A stretch of DNA of 64,000 bases from Mycoplana azooxidifex. Its GTDB lineage: Bacteria > Pseudomonadota > Alphaproteobacteria > Rhizobiales > Rhizobiaceae. The stretch is from positions 1 through 64,000 of the forward strand of contig NZ_JACIEE010000002.1 of assembly GCF_014196765.1 (NCBI RefSeq). The letters are read 5' to 3'. The notes under the pieces were generated by a model. It saw only the letters and a program-made list of their open reading frames with translations, had not been told where the DNA came from and made no database searches. The position numbers and the translations under genes were made by a program. Below, one piece after another: positions 35,505-43,663 of this stretch; within the stretch, counting starts at the first letter, position 1; each line of letters opens with the position of its first letter.

Positions 35505-36536
35505 TTATCGCAGCCGGATAGCCGCAACCTCGAGGGGTTCGTTCCGTCCTCGGATGACATGGAATCCGAGGTGCTCGGCGGCGAAATCCTGTGGCAGGCC
35601 TTGCATGCTGCCGAGCAAATCAGCGGAGACCAAAACAGGCTCGCCGAGCGTCCTGGACAGCGTTTCAAGACGTCCGGTGGTGTTCACGACATCGCCGAAG
35701 TAAGCGATTTTATGCCGCTCAAGACCAACTTCGGCCGTGACCACCCAACCGCAGTGCAGGACAGCGCGAAACTGTGGCACCTGACCGAACCGCGCCTGCC
35801 ACGCGGAAGATTGAGCTTTGATCGTGGCGGCGAAGTCGAATACGCAACGAAGGCATGCGGCATCGCGCATTCCACGACGCATGGGCCACGTAACCAGCGC
35901 CATATCCCCTATATAGTCGTCGATCGAACCTTGGGTTCGTCGAACGGGCGCTGCGAGTGCGTTGAATATCTGTCCCAGGTAGGCCTGGGCCTCCAGATCA
36001 CCATGTTGGTCCGCAAAGTGCGTGGAGCCGGAGACATCCAGGAACAGGAAGATGCGTTCCTCCCTGGTGGGACGGTGGTAACGGCCGAGAAGCAGGCTGA
36101 TGAACAGGCTTGGCCCGATAAGGTCACTTACGCGAAACACGAACGCAACCACCGCGGATACGGCCAGCGAATACAATAGACCGGAGTCCGACATTGCCAT
36201 CGCTTCCCGGGCGGTCTGCATATATCTGAACAAGTGGTGAAGAGCGGTGCCGGCAGCCGCGTTGCCAACCACGATCATCAGCCCATAGATTGCGATCGTG
36301 GCTGGTACGAAGACTGGCGTAGCAGCTTCTCGGATTGCGTTGCGCGATCCACTGAAGAGGACGCCGCGCTCGTACAGGATTATCGGGGTTCCGATAAACG
36401 CTCCACGAATCGCTGAGTGAACGATATCGAGGTTGAAGATCAGCGCGTAAAGGACGCCGGCCAGCGCTCCCACAACAGGTGCAAGGAGCCAGAACCAGGG
36501 CCGGCGAAAATGACGCTGGTCGCGCCGGATATTCAT
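35505..36536 (-). CDS. Membrane-anchored class III adenylate/guanylate cyclase
   Basis: A 343-residue protein with about four or five N-terminal membrane segments (residues about 14-150) and a cytoplasmic class III cyclase domain (about 160-343). Metal-binding D167 (FLFLDVSGST) and D211 (YIGDMALVTW) are present, as are N285 and R289 in FGDVVNTTGRLE, so it should be active. Whether it makes cAMP or cGMP is not decided. ATG 36536 is 10 bp after the epoxide-hydrolase stop and behind GAGG, so the two genes form an operon; an in-frame GTG at 36545 is the alternative. It converges on the LysR gene. Confidence 0.85.
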   Translation of the reverse strand: MNIRRDQRHFRRPWFWLLAPVVGALAGVLYALIFNLDIVHSAIRGAFIGTPIILYERGVLFSGSRNAIREAATPVFVPATIAIYGLMIVVGNAAAGTALHHLFRYMQTAREAMAMSDSGLLYSLAVSAVVAFVFRVSDLIGPSLFISLLLGRYHRPTREERIFLFLDVSGSTHFADQHGDLEAQAYLGQIFNALAAPVRRTQGSIDDYIGDMALVTWPMRRGMRDAACLRCVFDFAATIKAQSSAWQARFGQVPQFRAVLHCGWVVTAEVGLERHKIAYFGDVVNTTGRLETLSRTLGEPVLVSADLLGSMQGLPQDFAAEHLGFHVIRGRNEPLEVAAIRLR

Positions 36537-36546
36537 CCGGGGCACC

Positions 36547-37854
36547 TCACATCAGGGGCCGCAGCGACCTGAACGCCTCTCGGAGCTCGGACGCGAAGAG
36601 TTCCGGTTCTTCCCAGGCAGCAAAGTGGCCGCCCTTGTCGACCTCGTTGAAGTAGATGAGGTTGTGATAGCTCCTCTCGACCCAGCTCTTTGGCGCGCGA
36701 TAGATCTCGCCCGGGAACACCGTCACGGCCGCGGGGATGGAGATATCCACCGCGTTGAAGTTGTTGGCGTTGTTCTCCCAGTAGAGCTGCGCCGACGAGA
36801 TCGCGCTGTTCGTCAGCCAATAGAGCGTGATGTCGTCCAGCATCTCGTCCTTGGTGAGCGAGCGCTCGGCATCGCCGCCGCTATAGGTCCATTGGTTGAA
36901 CTTGTCGTACATCCAGGCGGCGAGGCCGGCGGGTGAATCCGTCAATCCGTAGCCGACCGTCTGCGGCCGGGTCGTCATCATCGTGCCGTAGGCACCGTTC
37001 CTGGTGAAGAAGGTGCTGAGCGCATCGTATGCGGTCCTTTCCTCTTCGGTGAGACCCGCCGGCGCCGGATCGCCCGCACTCATGGCCTTGGCGGCATCAG
37101 GGGGTACCGTTGCAGGCATGTTGACGTGGATTCCGAGCAGACCCTTCAAATTCTGGCGGGCCATCTTGTCCGAAACGACCGAACCCCAGTCACCACCTTG
37201 AGATACATAGCGCTCGTATCCGAGGCGCGTCATGAGAATGTCCCAGGCGAGCCCAATTCGGTCGGCGTTCCAGCCCGGCTCCGTCGGCTGCTCGGAAAAG
37301 CCGTAGCCGGGCATCGAAGGTATGACGACATCGAAGGCATCCTCCGCACGTCCGCCGTAAGCCGTGGGATCGGTAAGCGGACCGATAGCCTTCAGGAGCT
37401 CGAGCACCGAGCCCGGCCAGCCATGGGTAATGATCAGCGGCAAGGCCTTCGGGTGCCTGGAGCGAACGTGGATGAAATGAATGTCGAGACCGTCGATCTC
37501 CGTCACGAACTGCGGCAGCGCATTGAGCTTCGTCTCGACCTTTCGCCAGTCGTAGTCCGTTCCCCAATACCGGACGAGTTCCTGCAGCTTGGCGAGTTGC
37601 ACGCCCTGGGATTGATCGGCGACGGTTTCCCTGGCAGGCCACCGTGTCGCCAGCACGCGTCGGCGCAGGTCCACGAGATCCTCTTCCGGGACGTTGACCT
37701 GGAAAGGGCGGATCGCCTTGCTTTCAGTCGCTGCGGCTTGCTGCACGGGCAGCAGGTTCAAGGCGCCTCCTGCGGCAAGAACAGTCGCTGACGTAACAAG
37801 AGCGGACGTCGCAAGAAAGCGGCGCCGGGTGGGGGATGGCGATAGTGCAGACAT
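36547..37854 (-). CDS. Tat-exported epoxide hydrolase (EHN domain plus alpha/beta hydrolase)
   Basis: A 435-residue epoxide hydrolase. SPTRRRFLATSALVTSATVL at the N-terminus is a twin-arginine signal. An EHN domain (about residues 45-155; PFQVNVPEEDLVDLRRRVLA) precedes the alpha/beta hydrolase fold with LPLIITHGWPGS, the nucleophile-type GGDWGS and the late GGHFAAWEEPE histidine. It would open epoxides in the periplasm. AGGAG precedes ATG 37854. A phased TAAC repeat site lies about 90 bp upstream, and a cyclase gene follows in the same operon. Confidence 0.87.
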   Translation of the reverse strand: MSALSPSPTRRRFLATSALVTSATVLAAGGALNLLPVQQAAATESKAIRPFQVNVPEEDLVDLRRRVLATRWPARETVADQSQGVQLAKLQELVRYWGTDYDWRKVETKLNALPQFVTEIDGLDIHFIHVRSRHPKALPLIITHGWPGSVLELLKAIGPLTDPTAYGGRAEDAFDVVIPSMPGYGFSEQPTEPGWNADRIGLAWDILMTRLGYERYVSQGGDWGSVVSDKMARQNLKGLLGIHVNMPATVPPDAAKAMSAGDPAPAGLTEEERTAYDALSTFFTRNGAYGTMMTTRPQTVGYGLTDSPAGLAAWMYDKFNQWTYSGGDAERSLTKDEMLDDITLYWLTNSAISSAQLYWENNANNFNAVDISIPAAVTVFPGEIYRAPKSWVERSYHNLIYFNEVDKGGHFAAWEEPELFASELREAFRSLRPLM

Positions 37855-37944
37855 GGATATTCTCCTGGTTGGAGGTGCAGGCGGACAGGTCCGGCAAAGC
37901 CTCTTGGTGACCTCCGGCATTCGAGCAGAGGCCGTGGAGAAACA

Positions 37945-37964
37945 CCCGTTATGGGTTGTTATCG
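37945..37964 (-). promoter_or_regulatory. Phased direct-repeat site A (epoxide hydrolase promoter region)
   Basis: On the minus strand it reads CGATAACAACCCATAACGGG: two TAAC units exactly 10 bp apart and ending in TAACGGG. It lies 91-110 bp before the epoxide-hydrolase start. It shares the TAACGGG end with sites B and C and, with C, the CG-N-TAAC-N-ACCCA block. Confidence 0.6.
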
Positions 37965-38157
37965 CTTCATAGGCAGCGAAAGGACGGTCTTGGATCCGAT
38001 CCGGCAGTGCACCAATCGCCGCCCAATGGGGTGGAGATAACTGGTTTGCTCGGATCTGGGCCGCAGTCTAAGAAGGCAGTTTGCGGCGATTGAAACCCAA
38101 GACAGTCGTCGAATACGTGTCTGCAACGCGCTTCCCGATCCACGGCCACGATTACCT

Positions 38158-38186
38158 GCTAACAGCATTTCACAAGCCATAACGGG
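38158..38186 (+). promoter_or_regulatory. Phased direct-repeat site B
   Basis: TAAC (38160), TCAC (38170) and TAACGGG (38180) are spaced exactly 10 bp, preceded by GC. The architecture is identical to site C. It overlaps the last codons of the broken SDR reading frame and points away from the epoxide-hydrolase gene. The rest of the 37855-38169 gap shows no gene. Confidence 0.55.
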
Positions 38187-38331
38187 TTTCCTGCAGCCAT
38201 CTCATAAGCGAAGCCAGTTGGGCGGGCTCCCGTGCCGTGGCCACGAGACGGTGACCGGCGTGAAGCACGGCTTCCGACAAGGCGCGACCGATGCCGCGCG
38301 AACACCTGGTGATGGGCCATCGTTGCGTCAT
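38170..38331 (-). pseudogene. N-terminal fragment of a short-chain dehydrogenase
   Basis: MTQRWPITRCSRGIGRALSE then AVLHAGHRLVATAREPAQLA matches the first 45 residues of SDRs with a classical TGxxxGIG cofactor site, but the frame ends after 53 codons, against about 250-280 in the family. The first glycine of the TG motif is an arginine (TRCSRGIG). A good GGAGGAG site precedes the ATG, so the 5' end is intact and the break is in the 3' part, exactly where site B lies. Confidence 0.75.
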
Positions 38332-38381
38332 GGTCTGCTCCTCCCCGACCGTTTCCCGGCCGTGAATAACCGTTCCGATCC

Positions 38382-38489
38382 GGCTAAGCGCGTCGCGATC
38401 CTTCGGATTCGCTTTACGCGCTTCAAGCCCTTGTTTTTTCGCATGTCGTTGTCGCAAAACCGCTGCACACTTTTGTGCGACATGCTCTA
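38382..38489 (-). repeat. RIME-like palindromic intergenic repeat, copy 2
   Basis: Inverted copy of the element at 12896-13004. Read on the minus strand it starts CTAGAGCATGTCGCACAAAA, keeps GTGTGCAGCGGTTTTGCGA and ends with the TCGCGACGCGCTTAG arm. Differences are mostly small substitutions and a few-base length change in the spacer. Its edge overlaps the stop codon (38487-38489) of the cytochrome gene, and it separates that gene from the broken SDR. Confidence 0.8.
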
Positions 38490-38996
38490 GGGCGCGAACC
38501 GCGTGAAAACGAAATCGTGGCCTTTCACGCGGGCTTCGTGGCACGCGAAGCAGGTTTGGTGCTGCGCTTCGTCGACTGGCTTGCCGCCGACAAATCGACC
38601 GAATCCCCAGCCGCCGGTCTCGGCATACTTCACCGAGTCCTTGACCATGATCTGGACCGTGGTGGCGGCGCCCGGAACGGAGGCGGGTTCGAATTCGGGC
38701 GACTGGACGTGTTTCCAGGCAAGCTTTGCAAGAATGGTTCCGTCGGGAAACGGAAGCGTCGCTCCGCGATACGCCTCGATCGCCACGGCATTGCCCAGAA
38801 CCGCGCGAAGCTCGTTCAAGGGCTCTGCCTCCAGTGCCGGCGCGATCAGTTCCCATTGCCGATATCCCTCGGGAATCGTGACGCCGTAGATCGGCGATGC
38901 GTTCTTCGCAATCGCACCGCTCTCGGCTCCCAGAGCCGCGGCCATTGCAACCGAAGCCAGGGTGACGCCTGACAACAGGAGGTGTGACGGTCTCAT
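38487..38996 (-). CDS. Cytochrome P460-family protein
   Basis: A 169-residue periplasmic haem protein. A signal peptide covers about residues 1-24, and C149-x-x-C152-H153 (TCFACHEARVKGHDF) binds haem c near the C-terminus, as in P460 and cytochrome c'-beta proteins. GTILAKLAWKH carries the lysine region that in true P460 cross-links to haem; whether it does so here is unknown. Known members oxidise hydroxylamine or bind NO. It lies 24 bp after the Tat alpha/beta-hydrolase gene, in one operon. Its stop codon is formed with the edge of the RIME-like repeat. Confidence 0.85.
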   Translation of the reverse strand: MRPSHLLLSGVTLASVAMAAALGAESGAIAKNASPIYGVTIPEGYRQWELIAPALEAEPLNELRAVLGNAVAIEAYRGATLPFPDGTILAKLAWKHVQSPEFEPASVPGAATTVQIMVKDSVKYAETGGWGFGRFVGGKPVDEAQHQTCFACHEARVKGHDFVFTRFAP

Positions 38997-39020
38997 TGGG
39001 TTACTCCGTTCGGCTGGCGT

Positions 39021-40079
39021 TCAGAAGCGGTCGACGTCGATGACGGCCTGGGCGAAGTCTTGCGGCGCTTCCTGTGGCAGATTGTGCCCGATGCCGCCTG
39101 TGATCAGCCGGTGTTCGTATCTGCCGGTGAACTTCTTGGCATAGGCTTCAGGGTCAGGATGCGGCGCGCCGTTTGCATCGCCTTCCATGGTGATGGTCGG
39201 CAAGGCGATGGCGGGAAATGCGGCCAGACGCTCTTCGAACGCGTCGTATTTCGGCTCGCCCTCGGCCAGCCCGAGGCGCCAGCGATAGTTGTGGATCACG
39301 ACGCTGACGTGGTCGGGATTGTCCAAGGCCGCGGCACTGCGCATGAACGTCGCGTCGTCGAAATCCCATTTCGGCGAGGCAAGCTCCCAGATCAGCCTGG
39401 CAAAATCTTGCCGATGCTCGTCATAGCCGGCCCGGCCGCGCTCGGTCGCGAAATAATACTGGTACCACCATTGCAGTTCGGCTTTCGGCGGCAGCGGCAT
39501 CTTGCCGGCTGCGCGACTGCCGATCAGGTAGCCGCTCACCGAGACCATGGCCTTGCAGCGCTCCGGCCACAGCGCCGCAATGACGTTCGCCGAACGCGCG
39601 CCCCAATCATAGCCGGCGAGGATCGCTCTTTCGATCTTCAGCGCGTCCATCATGGCGACAGTGTCGAGCGCCACCGCGGAGGGCTGGCCGTTGCGGACCG
39701 TATCGCTGGAGAGGAAGCGCGTCGTACCGTGGCCGCGCAGATAGGGGACGATCACGCGGTAGCCGGCCGATGCCAGCAAGGGAGCGACATCGGTGAAGCT
39801 GTCGATGTCATAGGGCCAGCCATGCAGCAAGATGACAGCCGGGCCGTCGGCAGGACCTGTCTGCGCATATCCGACATTCACGACGCCGGCGTCGATCTGC
39901 TTCAGCGAAGTGAACGGCGCGCTGGCGCCGGCCGATGGCGTGCGCCGACCTGATCCGCCCGTCTGCGCGCCCGCCGCCGTGATCCCGACGAGCTGCGCTG
40001 CAGCGACGGTCGCGGCAGCGGCACCAAAGAAATACCGGCGACGATAATCGATTTCTTCCGGGATGTTGGTCGTGTCCAT
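39021..40079 (-). CDS. Tat-exported alpha/beta hydrolase (epoxide hydrolase/dehalogenase-like)
   Basis: A 352-residue protein with a twin-arginine-like start (EIDYRRRYFFGAAAATVAAA) and an alpha/beta hydrolase domain. The oxyanion motif is LLHGWPYD, the nucleophile elbow AGYDWGARS carries an aspartate, and the late histidine is in GGIGHNLPQEAP. An Asp nucleophile points to epoxide hydrolase, haloalkane or fluoroacetate dehalogenase chemistry rather than esterase. It follows the Ohr-type gene by 57 bp and precedes the P460 gene. Confidence 0.85.
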   Translation of the reverse strand: MDTTNIPEEIDYRRRYFFGAAAATVAAAQLVGITAAGAQTGGSGRRTPSAGASAPFTSLKQIDAGVVNVGYAQTGPADGPAVILLHGWPYDIDSFTDVAPLLASAGYRVIVPYLRGHGTTRFLSSDTVRNGQPSAVALDTVAMMDALKIERAILAGYDWGARSANVIAALWPERCKAMVSVSGYLIGSRAAGKMPLPPKAELQWWYQYYFATERGRAGYDEHRQDFARLIWELASPKWDFDDATFMRSAAALDNPDHVSVVIHNYRWRLGLAEGEPKYDAFEERLAAFPAIALPTITMEGDANGAPHPDPEAYAKKFTGRYEHRLITGGIGHNLPQEAPQDFAQAVIDVDRF

Positions 40080-40136
40080 TGGTAAACCGTCCCTGTGTCG
40101 TATGTCCGTGAGATGGCGCCGCCCGATCGTGCCGGG

Positions 40137-40553
40137 CTAGACGAGATTGATCGCGACATCGATGTTGCCGCGCGTGGCCTTGGAGTACGGGCAGGTCTGG
40201 TGCGCGGCATCCACGACGGCCTGGGCGACTTCGCGATCGACGCCGGGCAGGCTCACATTGAGGCGGGCGCGCAGGAAATAGGCGTCATCGGAAACGTTCA
40301 GGTCTACCTCGGCATCAATCGCCAGCTCGGCAGGTAGCTTGACGTTCATCTTGCGGGCGGCGATCGCCATCGCACCCTCGAAGCAGGCCGACCAGCCGGC
40401 CGCGAAGAGCTGCTCCGGATTGGTGCCGCTGCCTGGGCCGCCGGGTGTCGAGAGCCTGATGTCCAGCTTGCCGTCGGAACTGCGGGACGCTCCTTCCCGG
40501 CCGCCGGTCGTGCGGACCTTGGCCGTGTAGAGCAGTTTCTCGTTGGTGGTCAT
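40137..40553 (-). CDS. Organic hydroperoxide resistance protein (Ohr/OsmC family)
   Basis: A 138-residue thiol peroxidase. The reactive cysteines C57 (GWSACFEGA) and C121 (HQTCPYSK) and the assisting R19 and E48 are at Ohr-like positions. It reduces organic hydroperoxides with lipoylated partners in the cytoplasm. AAGGA precedes the ATG. It heads the operon Ohr, alpha/beta hydrolase, P460, and is divergent from the large winged-helix regulator, with phased-repeat site C between them. Confidence 0.9.
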   Translation of the reverse strand: MTTNEKLLYTAKVRTTGGREGASRSSDGKLDIRLSTPGGPGSGTNPEQLFAAGWSACFEGAMAIAARKMNVKLPAELAIDAEVDLNVSDDAYFLRARLNVSLPGVDREVAQAVVDAAHQTCPYSKATRGNIDVAINLV

Positions 40554-40585
40554 ATTTGAGTTCCTTCTGAGAAAACATGGGTCGG

Positions 40586-40672
40586 TCAGCTGCGCCCGCC
40601 ATCCAGCGAGATGTCGGCCGTCGTCTTGTCATGGAAGTGTAGGAGGTTGAACGGAATGGACGATGCGGGCAT
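40586..40672 (-). CDS. Possible 28-residue leader ORF upstream of the Ohr gene
   Basis: An ATG at 40672 preceded by AAGGAGA at good distance opens a 28-codon frame, MPASSIPFNLLHFHDKTTAD followed by ISLDGGRS, that stops 32 bp before the Ohr start. It may be a leader peptide or a gene remnant; I recognise no family. The strong ribosome-binding site is the main support. Confidence 0.35.
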   Translation of the reverse strand: MPASSIPFNLLHFHDKTTADISLDGGRS

Positions 40673-40747
40673 GATCGCTCTCCTTGGACCGGCCGGCAGG
40701 GCGGCTTCCTGTCGTCCGGAACACATAGAGTGAGATCGCCCGAGGCG

Positions 40748-40776
40748 CCCGTTATGCATTGTGATGGGTCGTTAGC
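40748..40776 (-). promoter_or_regulatory. Phased direct-repeat site C (regulator/Ohr divergent promoter)
   Basis: On the minus strand TAAC, TCAC and TAACGGG follow one another at 10-bp intervals (GTTA 40751, GTGA 40761, GTTA 40771 on the plus strand). It lies 44-72 bp before the preferred regulator start and about 200 bp before the Ohr gene. Three in-phase repeats fit binding by an OmpR/PhoB-type winged helix such as the one the adjacent regulator carries. Confidence 0.6.
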
Positions 40777-40819: not shown

Positions 40820-43663
40820 ATGCATTCGAATGATACGATAAGTTTTGGCCCTTTCACATTGACTGCGAAGGAACGGCTGCTCCTGCGGCAAGGCGCTCCG
40901 GTCGATCTGGGCACGCGCGCTTTCGACATGCTGGCCATGTTGGCCGCGCGTCCCAATCAGATCGTCAGCAAGAAGGATCTGTTGGATCATGTCTGGCCCG
41001 ACGTCACCGTCGAGGAAGGCAGCCTGCGGTTCCACATGGCCAATCTGCGAAAGGCGCTGGGGGACGGCAAGGACGGCGCACGCTACATCGCGACCCTGAC
41101 AGGGCGCGGCTACAGCTTCGTGGCGCCCGTCTCGCGATCGGCCGGTCAAGGAGACGTGCATGAAGACATCGCTACCAGCTATCCGAATGCCAATCTGCCG
41201 AGCCGTCTTACCCGCATGGTCGGGCGCGTCGACGATGTTCTCGTCCTGTCGAACAAGCTGACGGCCAAGCGCTTTGTCACGGTCGTGGGTACGGGTGGGG
41301 TCGGCAAGACCACAGTCGCGGTGGCGGTGGGGCACGACCTGATCGAAGCGTTCGCCGGCGCCGTGCACTTCGTCGATCTGGGGGCACTGAGCGATCCCGG
41401 CCTGGTTGCGACCACAGTGGCCTCAATGCTGGGGTTGTCGCTTCAATCCGATGATCCTGCGCCCGCTTTGATCTCATACCTTGCGGACAAGCGTATCCTT
41501 CTGATCCTCGATACTTGCGAGCATGTCATAGACGCGGCGGCAGACTTGACGTTCCGCATTTTCGCCGCCGCGCCGCAAGTCCATATTCTGACGACGAGCC
41601 GCGAACCTCTTCAAGTCGAAGGCGAGCACGTCTACAAGCTGGCGCCGCTCGCTTGCGCGCCGGACGGTCTGGAACTCACCGCGACCGTTGCGCAAACCTA
41701 CCCGGCGACCCAGCTGTTCGTGGAGCGCGCGGCTGCAAGCGGCACCCGGATTGACCTCGACGATGCGGATGCCGCAATCATCGCCGGCATTTGCCGGAAG
41801 CTCGACGGCGTGCCGCTCGCGATCGAACTGGCGGCCGGACGGGTTGCGAGCTACGGCCTCCAGAAGACCGCGGCACTTCTCGACGAGCGCCTGACGCTGT
41901 TGTGGCCGGGGCAACGCACCGCGCCGCCGCGCCAGAAAACCCTTCAGGCCACGCTGGACTGGAGCTATGGGCTCCTGTCCGATTTCGAGCGCCAGGTGCT
42001 TCGGCGCCTTGCCGTGTTTGTCGGCCATTTTTCGATCGAGGCCGCCCTGGAGGTCGTGACGAGCGCGACCGTCGATGACGCGCATGTATTTGCCGCCATC
42101 GACAGCCTCATCGCCAAATCGATGGTCGCGACAAGGCCCGCTGGCGCGACGATGCGTTACCGCCTGCTCGACACGACGCGGGCCTATGCCTTCCAACTCG
42201 ACGTCGACGATGCCGAACTCGCGACCCTGGCCGCACGTCATGCGACCCACCATCTGCGCTGGCTGGAAGAGACAGGCGCCGAATGGCCGACCCTGTCGAG
42301 CGCGAAGCAAAGGTCGCTTCACCTCGCCGGCCTCGCCAATGTGCGCGCGGCTTTGGAATGGTGCTTCGGACCCGGCGGGAATACCGAAATCGGCATCCTG
42401 CTCGCTGCCGCTGCCGCTCCTGTCTTTCTGTCGATGTCTTTGCTCACCGAATGCCACCGGTGGTCGGCTCAGGCGGTTCTTGCCCTCGACGACACCACAC
42501 GCGGGGGGCGGGAGGAAATGCATCTCCAGGCGGCACTGGGCGTATCTCTGATGTTCACGCACGGAGGAAGAGATGCAGCGCACATGGCATTGAGCAGGAG
42601 CTTTGCCATTGCCGACCGATCTGGCGATGCGCTCGATCAGCTTCAGATTCTCGGGCCGCTGCAGATGTTCTACCTGCGCACCGGGGAGTTCAGGACTGCG
42701 CTGCACTACGCGGAACGCTGTTCCGTCATCGCCGGGACGCTTGAGGACTCTGTCTCCACCACGTTGGCGCATTCCTTGATGGGGATTTCGCTCCACCTCA
42801 GCGGAGAGCTTTACCGTGCGCAGACTGCGCTCGAAGCGGCGTTGCGGCATGGGCCGCGTTCCGACCGAACCACGACAAACTATCTCGGCTTCGACGGCAA
42901 GATTCTCGCTGGTGCGATTCTGGCAAGGACACTTTGGCTGCAAGGCTTTCCGGATCGGGCAATGGAGCAGGCGCTACAGACGATCAGGGATGCCGAGACC
43001 CTGGACCATCCATTGACGCTCTCCATCGCGCTGGTCTGGGCCGTCTCCGTATTTCTGTGGATCGGAGACATCGAGAACGCAGACACGCACATCGATCGCC
43101 TTTTCTCCCAGGCAGAATTTCATTCTCTCGGTCCTTATCTCGCCGTGGGACGCGGCTTCAGGGGGGAGATCGCCATTCGTCGAGGCGACGCAAGCAACGG
43201 TGTCGATGTCCTTCAGCGCTCTCTGGCAGAACTCCATGCTGCGCCCTACGAACTGCTCACCACGCCGCTCAATATCGCGCTCATTCAGGGCCTCGCAGCA
43301 ACCGGCCGATTTGCTGAAGCTTTCGCGCTGATCGACACCACAATCCGGTTGGTCGAGGCCAACGGGGAACTCGGCTACCTCCCGGAGTTGTTACGCGTCA
43401 GGGGCGGCCTTGTTCTGGCAGCGCCGCGACCCGCCATCGACGAGGCGGAACTGTATTTCAGGCGAGCACTCGAACTCAGCCGCCGCCAGGGCGCGCGGGC
43501 ATGGGAATTGCGCACCGCCACCGACCTGGCCGCCCTTTTGGCCGCCCGCGGGCAATGTGAGGATGCCCGAGCCCTTCTCCAGCCAATCTTCGCTTGGTTC
43601 GCGAAGAGTTTGGAGACGGCCGATCTGAAGTCAGCCGCACGCTTGCTGGCGATGCTGAATTGA
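40820..43663 (+). CDS. Winged-helix / NB-ARC-like ATPase / TPR transcriptional regulator
   Basis: A 947-residue signal-sensing regulator. Residues 1-105 form an OmpR/PhoB-type winged helix (SLRFHMANLRKALGD, GRGYSFVAPV). A P-loop ATPase follows with Walker A GTGGVGKTT (157-165) and Walker B ILLILDTCEHV, then KTLQATLDWSYGLL of STAND-type ATPases and a long helical TPR-like C-terminal half. I prefer ATG 40820; in-frame starts at 40754 (ATG) and 40730 (GTG) would overlap site C. It is divergent from the Ohr operon. The ligand is unknown. Confidence 0.88.
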   Translation: MHSNDTISFGPFTLTAKERLLLRQGAPVDLGTRAFDMLAMLAARPNQIVSKKDLLDHVWPDVTVEEGSLRFHMANLRKALGDGKDGARYIATLTGRGYSFVAPVSRSAGQGDVHEDIATSYPNANLPSRLTRMVGRVDDVLVLSNKLTAKRFVTVVGTGGVGKTTVAVAVGHDLIEAFAGAVHFVDLGALSDPGLVATTVASMLGLSLQSDDPAPALISYLADKRILLILDTCEHVIDAAADLTFRIFAAAPQVHILTTSREPLQVEGEHVYKLAPLACAPDGLELTATVAQTYPATQLFVERAAASGTRIDLDDADAAIIAGICRKLDGVPLAIELAAGRVASYGLQKTAALLDERLTLLWPGQRTAPPRQKTLQATLDWSYGLLSDFERQVLRRLAVFVGHFSIEAALEVVTSATVDDAHVFAAIDSLIAKSMVATRPAGATMRYRLLDTTRAYAFQLDVDDAELATLAARHATHHLRWLEETGAEWPTLSSAKQRSLHLAGLANVRAALEWCFGPGGNTEIGILLAAAAAPVFLSMSLLTECHRWSAQAVLALDDTTRGGREEMHLQAALGVSLMFTHGGRDAAHMALSRSFAIADRSGDALDQLQILGPLQMFYLRTGEFRTALHYAERCSVIAGTLEDSVSTTLAHSLMGISLHLSGELYRAQTALEAALRHGPRSDRTTTNYLGFDGKILAGAILARTLWLQGFPDRAMEQALQTIRDAETLDHPLTLSIALVWAVSVFLWIGDIENADTHIDRLFSQAEFHSLGPYLAVGRGFRGEIAIRRGDASNGVDVLQRSLAELHAAPYELLTTPLNIALIQGLAATGRFAEAFALIDTTIRLVEANGELGYLPELLRVRGGLVLAAPRPAIDEAELYFRRALELSRRQGARAWELRTATDLAALLAARGQCEDARALLQPIFAWFAKSLETADLKSAARLLAMLN

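Follow-up and report, generated by a model that had tools for sequence, protein, structure and literature searches.

Which protein reads the short direct repeats found beside a peroxiredoxin operon of Mycoplana azooxidifex, and what do these repeats control? The question arises from three sites, here named A, B and C, in the first 64,000 nucleotides of contig NZ_JACIEE010000002.1 (the whole stretch analysed, hereafter the window), where units of the TAAC or TCAC type recur every 10 bp close to the gene for a 947-residue regulator (REG) and to genes for an Ohr family peroxiredoxin, an alpha/beta hydrolase (ABH), a cytochrome P460 domain protein and an epoxide hydrolase (EH). A first-pass annotation of this DNA had proposed that REG binds A and C and thereby controls the EH/cyclase operon, the Ohr/hydrolase/P460 operon and its own gene, an interpretation which, taken as a whole, our results support in part. 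We found that the sites are specific, conserved, linked to REG and its presumed targets, and set at a fixed distance from a -10 element. We consider it likely that all three belong to one family of activator-dependent promoters, whose head-to-tail repeats REG would bind to activate an Ohr/epoxide-hydrolase detoxification regulon. The three sites are as follows.

37945-37961, minus strand: site A, TAACAACCCATAACGGG; two repeats (TAACAACCCA-TAACGGG), upstream of the epoxide hydrolase gene; matrix score 24.2.
38160-38186, plus strand: site B, TAACAGCATTTCACAAGCCATAACGGG; three repeats, an exact match to TAACN6TMACN6TAACGGG.
40748-40774, minus strand: site C, TAACGACCCATCACAATGCATAACGGG; three 10-bp direct repeats (TAACGACCCA-TCACAATGCA-TAACGGG); predicted operator and -35 region of the ohr operon.

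Sites A and C are directed into the EH and Ohr operons, respectively, and B is directed away from both. Site A equals site C minus the middle TCAC unit; because the unit upstream of it reads TATG, A is a two-repeat site. The annotated repeats at 10-bp spacing were indeed present as exact matches: TAACN6TMACN6TAACGGG occurred in the window at B and C only and in none of 100 shuffles, TAACN6TAACGGG matched exactly at A only, and allowing the latter one mismatch yielded three places (A, B and C) against 0.13 expected. Throughout the 5.88-Mb genome the three-unit pattern was again confined to B and C, and its reversed counterpart was absent. The two-unit form is by itself not specific genome-wide: TMACN6TAACGGG matched exactly at five places (A, B and C, plus a single one on each of contigs C5 and C12), and with one mismatch allowed it gave 28 matches, its reversed control 115, so that weak motif matches elsewhere in this genome are uninformative. 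The additional exact places were discarded as sites (matrix score of 8.6 on C12, none above 0 on C5), as was C7:362137 (TGACAGCCCATAACGGG; 2.8). A first matrix was built from eight sites (B, C and those of loci L016, L029 and L035); a matrix derived from 30 sites of other genomes scored B at 39.7, C at 38.6 and A at 24.2, with a null maximum of 12.3 in 1.36 Mb of letter-reversed loci. Extending it to 62 positions that include the -10 region gave 56.1 for C, 29.6 for A and 29.0 for B (null maximum 11.7). The repeats are real and far from chance.

Scanning of genome contigs provided 42 loci with relatives of REG, 32 of them orthologues of at least 49% identity and 10 remoter, at 31-41%. Conservation of the motif next to orthologous regulators, which the first-pass annotation had named as a check, was evident: with the eight-site matrix, 30 of the 32 orthologue loci showed a site (score 18.9 to 46.2) upstream of REG and on the same strand as the enzyme operon, and none of the 10 remoter loci had one or scored above 15.9 anywhere. 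Site-bearing records are named Mesorhizobium, Bradyrhizobium, Reyranella, Chelatococcus, Gluconacetobacter, Acetobacter and others. One of them, titled Frankia sp. RB7 (L022), contains a Bradyrhizobium-type REG locus with almost unchanged sites, and its label is probably wrong. In Acidisphaera sp. S103 (L028:4078-9835) two tandem REG orthologues, 60 and 62% identical to that of the window, stand behind one divergent site, which precedes the first copy. Ohr and ABH were both encoded upstream of REG on the opposite strand in 26 of the 32 loci, 23 of which also had P460 or part of it (manual count). An EH or a short-chain dehydrogenase (SDR) gene often accompanies the ohr-ABH-P460 operon, EH coming first in L010, L011, L013, L014 and L029, and a redoxin-domain protein is encoded nearby in some genomes.

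The genomes of 31 of the 32 orthologues (all except that of L017) were then searched with the degenerate pattern TMAYN6TMAYN6WAACGGG. We obtained 40 matches in 27 genomes and none with the reversed pattern which, together with the confinement of the three-unit form to B and C in the own genome, answers the concern that the motif might occur at random. For 38 of the 40 matches, a gene homologous to REG (counting paralogues of 43-47%), EH, Ohr, ABH or P460 lay no more than 3 kb away, the exceptions being L123 and L124; the operator thus co-occurs with the orthologous regulator and its target genes, as a regulon would have it. The nearest downstream homologue on the same strand was Ohr in 17 cases, EH in 6, an AraC-type protein in 6, a redoxin-domain protein in 3, REG in 2, ABH in 2, SDR in 1 and none in 3. 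These assignments rest on tblastn starts obtained by extrapolation, and the distance came out negative in two cases, including a weak AraC match (L028, 31%); the queries for AraC and redoxin were added post hoc from L117 and L116, and none of the 38 depends on them. Another regulator of these neighbourhoods could bind the sites, for instance the AraC-type protein whose gene comes after the site in five loci of Bradyrhizobium type (L117-L121), and REG would then be a passenger. We regard this as very unlikely, since 7 of the 40 matches have an AraC-type homologue within 3 kb, against 36 of 40 for a REG-family gene, and since direct repeats of 10 bp are characteristic targets of OmpR-type winged helices.

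Target operons located away from REG keep the site as well, which indicates that the site goes with the targets and not only with REG. In Bradyrhizobium sp. LHD-71 an ABH-P460 operon (L122) on a different contig from the REG orthologue has its own site, as does an ABH gene away from REG in L128. Three Mesorhizobium genomes (G201, G203 and G205) harbour a second site before a second REG (46-47% identical), with EH further downstream (L114-L116). In L117-L121, near 5.2-6.4 kb, a second, conserved site class of Bradyrhizobium-type genomes precedes the AraC-type gene, with REG paralogues alongside. A redoxin-domain protein with an N-terminal half that seems to span the membrane is encoded behind or near a site in L116 (8544-10133), with homologues in L016 and L035, and may be a further regulon member that supplies reducing power. 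Among 201 relatives, the stricter TMACN6TCAYN6TAACGGG was found in the own genome only; 14 of the 201, own included, had a REG homologue at E 1e-100 or better, the best other one being G154 (60%) and the rest reaching at most 46%. G154 has a site that ends in CAACGGG and was missed by the pattern (L146, score 36.4).

A stack was made of 30 non-redundant sites from outside the window, near-identical rows having been dropped and four pattern matches (L117, L119, L123 and L124) set aside by hand beforehand. The family consensus reads C-T[AC]A[CT]-A-N5-T[AC]A[CT]-AA-N4-[TA]AACGGG-N20-TA, and the C before the first unit and the A after TMAY in units 1 and 2 are conserved outside the bases of the search pattern. 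A fourth upstream repeat was dismissed as a general feature, as only 7 of the 30 sites have a TMAY-like unit there (loose pattern). Leave-one-out scores of the 30 sites ranged from 22.8 to 41.9, against the null maximum of 12.3. Mean pairwise identity across 12 lineages was 0.74 in the site, 0.46-0.53 in the adjoining stretches (-10 included) and 0.27-0.32 further out, a contrast between site and flanks that is due in part to the choice of sites by pattern. The dinucleotide TA stands exactly 20 bp after GGG in 26 of the 30 sites (next-best offset, 2 of 30), so that the last repeat occupies the -35 position and a rhizobial-type -10 follows. An excerpt of PMC2873474 gives the rhizobial sigma-70 consensus as CTTGAC-N17-CTATAT. 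With CTAT taken as the -10 (CTATgt type), the GGG end of the last repeat would fall within the -35 hexamer, and no CTTGAC-like -35 box at 17 bp was seen by eye in the aligned sites. The corresponding elements of the window are given below.

40722-40727, minus strand: -10-like hexamer TATGTG of site C, starting 20 bp after GGG.
37919-37924, minus strand: weak -10 candidate TCGAAT of site A, at the conserved distance and without the conserved TA.

Judged by these elements, C has the make-up of a complete promoter of the family and A that of a weaker, two-repeat form; for B we saw neither a -10 at the conserved distance nor a gene in its direction. The overlap of the last repeat with the -35 position would also fit a steric block, with REG bound as a repressor that leaves the -35 region upon a signal. 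We consider repression rather improbable, because a conserved -10 without a CTTGAC-like -35 at 17 bp is what is expected of activator-dependent promoters, which makes activation the likelier mode, and because the spacing from the repeats down to the -10 is constant, as it is with activator sites. Promoters of extracytoplasmic function (ECF) sigma factors also look like a fixed -35 block with a -10 at constant spacing, so that TAACGGG-N20-TA could be read as a promoter of that type, the upstream repeats binding something else. This is quite unlikely: the conserved block is one of three phased TMAY copies, an arrangement for which a sigma factor would have no use, the sites go together with REG, and a search for sigma factors, confined to eight proteins of the window, found none.

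Binding and activation by REG are thus the reading that we prefer, and the domains of the protein are in keeping with it. Trans_reg_C (PF00486) scored 64 bits against a cut-off of 26.2 over residues 26-100, which identifies an OmpR/PhoB-type winged helix, resembling those of PhoB, ToxR and CadC. The matches to NB-ARC (32.5 bits, cut-off 23.5) and TPR_12 (30.9, cut-off 30.1) are those of a STAND NTPase regulator, and G157, G160, G162 and K163 of the P-loop GTGGVGKTT are invariant in 21 homologues. The Pfam search at E 0.001 returned no receiver domain, the winged helix lying near the N-terminus, and no BTAD, only about 30 residues separating the end of the winged helix (100) from the start of NB-ARC (132). 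REG is therefore neither a SARP nor a response regulator, but by analogy it probably works like them. The best fold match in the PDB was 6mfv, a STAND-TPR protein, with a TM-score of 0.27 by query length, followed by CED-4 and MalT domain III, a comparison whose low scores were used solely to support the domain class. The helix region of REG reads [SN]LRF[HQ] in the listed orthologues except that of L027. SLRFH was rejected as a code that would separate the users of TAACGGG, as L027 (NLRVH) has sites and SLRVH paralogues adjoin sites in L118, L120 and L147.

We propose that each of the head-to-tail 10-bp repeats, one per DNA turn, would be bound by one REG protomer, and that the NTPase domain would keep the protomers assembled upon sensing of a signal. 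As the last repeat sits in the -35 place and no -35 box is evident, bound REG would take the place of sigma region 4, or clamp it, and bring in RNA polymerase in the manner of AfsR and PhoB. The usual target would be a peroxide/epoxide detoxification operon with Ohr, ABH and P460, whose enzymes point to organic peroxides or epoxides as the signal. In the window, C would drive ohr-ABH-P460, A would drive EH-cyclase more weakly, and B would be a relic. The genes concerned are listed here.

40820-43663, plus strand: REG, regulator of 947 aa with a Trans_reg_C winged helix (residues 26-100), an NB-ARC/STAND NTPase domain (from 132) and C-terminal TPR.
40137-40553, minus strand: Ohr family peroxiredoxin of 138 aa (TIGR03561 above its cut-off).
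39021-40079, minus strand: ABH, alpha/beta hydrolase of 352 aa.
38487-38996, minus strand: cytochrome P460 domain protein of 169 aa.
36547-37857, minus strand: EH, epoxide hydrolase (EHN + abhydrolase) of 436 aa; the open frame permits an earlier start at 37920.
35505-36545, minus strand: adenylate/guanylate cyclase-domain protein of 346 aa, directly after EH.

The genes ohr, ABH and P460 are divergent from REG, and the strong link between the site and this operon backs that part of the annotated proposal in which REG would control the Ohr/hydrolase/P460 operon. Control of the EH/cyclase operon by A is plausible, EH being the first homologue behind the site in L010, L011, L013, L014, L016 and L029; on the other side, A has two repeats only and no conserved TA, and a homologue of the cyclase was found in none of the related loci compared. 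The suggested self-control of REG is conjectural: candidate REG starts stand at varied distances from the site (in 10 of 11 loci the one nearest to the gene is 85 to 309 bp away, and L008 has none), and the conserved -10 points at the enzyme operon.

Several observations weigh against a regulon activated by REG. In two of the 32 orthologue loci the region upstream of REG is without a site: L019 shows just a weak match on the opposite strand (16.3; 12.2 with the second matrix), and L030 an imperfect site elsewhere in the locus (20.0). The exact degenerate pattern is absent from four of the 31 genomes (L019, L024, L025 and L030), of which L024 and L025 have variant sites upstream of REG. In L118, L120 and L147 such sites have diverged REG paralogues (43-44%, SLRVH helix) as neighbours, so the motif may be recognized by more than one member of the family. 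A third repeat and the TA are missing from site A, and a -10 and a gene from B. The AlphaFold model of REG is of moderate quality (mean pLDDT 79.1, pTM 0.58, from 21 homologues), and no signal or sensor residue was identified for REG. Finally, in 385 genomes of the class, sampled irrespective of REG carriage, TMAYN6TMAYN6TAACGGG occurred at 10 places (7 genomes) against 18 for the reversed pattern (manual count); without REG, the pattern is no commoner than chance. These ten places comprise the two own sites, two in G323 (35.9 and 39.3) and six others that score 6.6 to 19.9. G323 was noticed by motif alone, its two sites lying 3 kb apart, and its locus (L145) was then shown to encode REG (54% identity), EH (59%) and Ohr (51%) and to contain four scoring sites; a prediction made from the motif was borne out.

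The surroundings of B and C bear probable traces of rearrangement, represented by two further features.

38173-38346, minus strand: SDR remnant (adh_short 21.1 bits, below the curated 26.6).
40586-40672, minus strand: 28-codon open frame (MPASS...) between site C and ohr.

Compared with SDR genes of other loci, the DNA homology of the remnant ends at about 38212 and the translated homology at about 38195-38212, a break 10 to 26 bp from site B. From this arrangement, B is probably a displaced promoter remnant brought by a rearrangement, next to the break of the truncated SDR. The 28-codon frame starts at the position of the EH start codon of L010 and L011, with DNA homology that spans the operator and ends a few codons in, and L003 and L006, which have no EH there, align over the same stretch; the frame would probably be the scar of an EH copy lost between C and ohr. 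Positions 37965-38157, between A and B, had no clear homologue in the related loci compared beyond the sites themselves. The intergenic stretch 38378-38490 is 75-83% similar in parts to the Mesorhizobium loci L114, L115 and L124 and looks like a dispersed rhizobial repeat. The appearance of B as a rearrangement leftover would suit the view that the repeats are chance or mobile sequence without a regulatory role. For B alone that view is possible; the evidence already speaks against it for C, and as an account of all the sites we give it hardly any weight, given the 40 matches against 0 reversed, the constant -10 spacing and the conservation across many genera.

How does the proposed activation by REG compare with known systems? 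Response regulators such as PhoB and OmpR share the family of their DNA-binding domain with REG, and PhoB binds head-to-tail repeats in place of the -35; they differ in that REG has no receiver domain in the Pfam search, its NTPase and TPR regions replacing control by phosphorylation. OhrR is a MarR-type peroxide sensor that controls ohr. Here, too, an ohr peroxiredoxin gene would be under control, but regulator and operator are of another class, and a search of eight window proteins found no MarR-type family. A STAND NTPase with a TPR-like sensor is also present in MalT and other regulators of the STAND class, MalT domain III being among the fold matches of REG, whereas MalT carries a C-terminal LuxR-type helix-turn-helix and uses other boxes. 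The SARPs are the other point of comparison: REG shares with them a direct-repeat operator at or near -35, with a period of 10 and not 11, and lacks the BTA domain after the winged helix. According to an excerpt on AfsR of Streptomyces (SARP-NOD-TPR; PMC10936776), direct repeats overlap the -35 before a weak promoter, and side-by-side protomers engage the box and sigma region 4. AfsR and REG have in common the winged helix, the STAND NTPase, the TPR and direct repeats at -35; AfsR has a BTA domain after the DNA-binding domain and 11-bp repeats, REG no BTAD match and 10-bp repeats, and their target genes differ. Monomers of PimR, the SARP-LAL regulator of Streptomyces natalensis, bind cooperatively to a triplet main operator and a doublet secondary operator, reminiscent of C (three repeats) and A (two); its heptamers have 4-bp spacers (11-bp period) and its operator does not overlap the -35 (PMC5930380). 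That AfsR and PimR, as presented in these excerpts, pair direct repeats with a STAND-type regulator was counted in favour of activation by REG. The TAACTGA repeats of Beggiatoaceae, which an excerpt of PMC4679880 describes as tandem heptamers just upstream of start codons, were set aside as not the same thing.

One open-access library (subscription papers lay outside the search) yielded no description of REG, its operator or its regulon, nor of a binding site for this type of regulator outside the SARPs. What would be new here, as read from the DNA, is a winged-helix activator that acts on -35 direct repeats of 10-bp period, has a STAND/TPR body and lacks a SARP domain. Such a concrete operator, promoter layout and target set for this regulator type point to a control of Ohr peroxiredoxins other than by OhrR. 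They also open to experiment the question of how, in Proteobacteria, a signal reaches promoters from a STAND NTPase, and the consensus is directly applicable to the mapping of such regulons in further genomes.

Other ohr copies of the own genome (C7, C2:530771 and C11) had no motif match in their surrounding loci. At G000:C7:274108-277767 (L156, L082), a second ABH and a second Ohr (69% identical) flank an OmpR-type response regulator and a histidine kinase, without the repeat motif. A second REG-like gene at G000:C14:7872-9608 (L074, L126), 57% identical to residues 367-946, has no winged-helix or P-loop match and no motif in its surrounding stretch, and is probably truncated.

To our knowledge, the winged-helix/STAND/TPR regulators of Alphaproteobacteria form a large and little studied family. 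We tentatively suggest, and with more doubt than conviction, that the whole family shares one operator logic, with three (sometimes four) head-to-tail 10-bp TMAY units, the last of them at -35 and setting the binder (TAACGGG for REG, TAACTC-like for others). The NTPase domain would assemble a row of DNA-binding domains, as a counterpart of AfsR-type sigma adaptation, and the REG branch would be an OhrR-independent response to organic peroxides or epoxides. Two leads concern this idea. At L077:4928 (by arithmetic G000:C13:38435, minus strand) a triple repeat, TAACAACATT-TCACATGCGT-TAACTCACC and then GGATATGT, lies near REG paralogues; with a -10 present and a 62-position score of 14.0 against the null maximum of 11.7, it is possibly an operator variant of another family member. 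The second is a four-unit array near a REG paralogue in L150.

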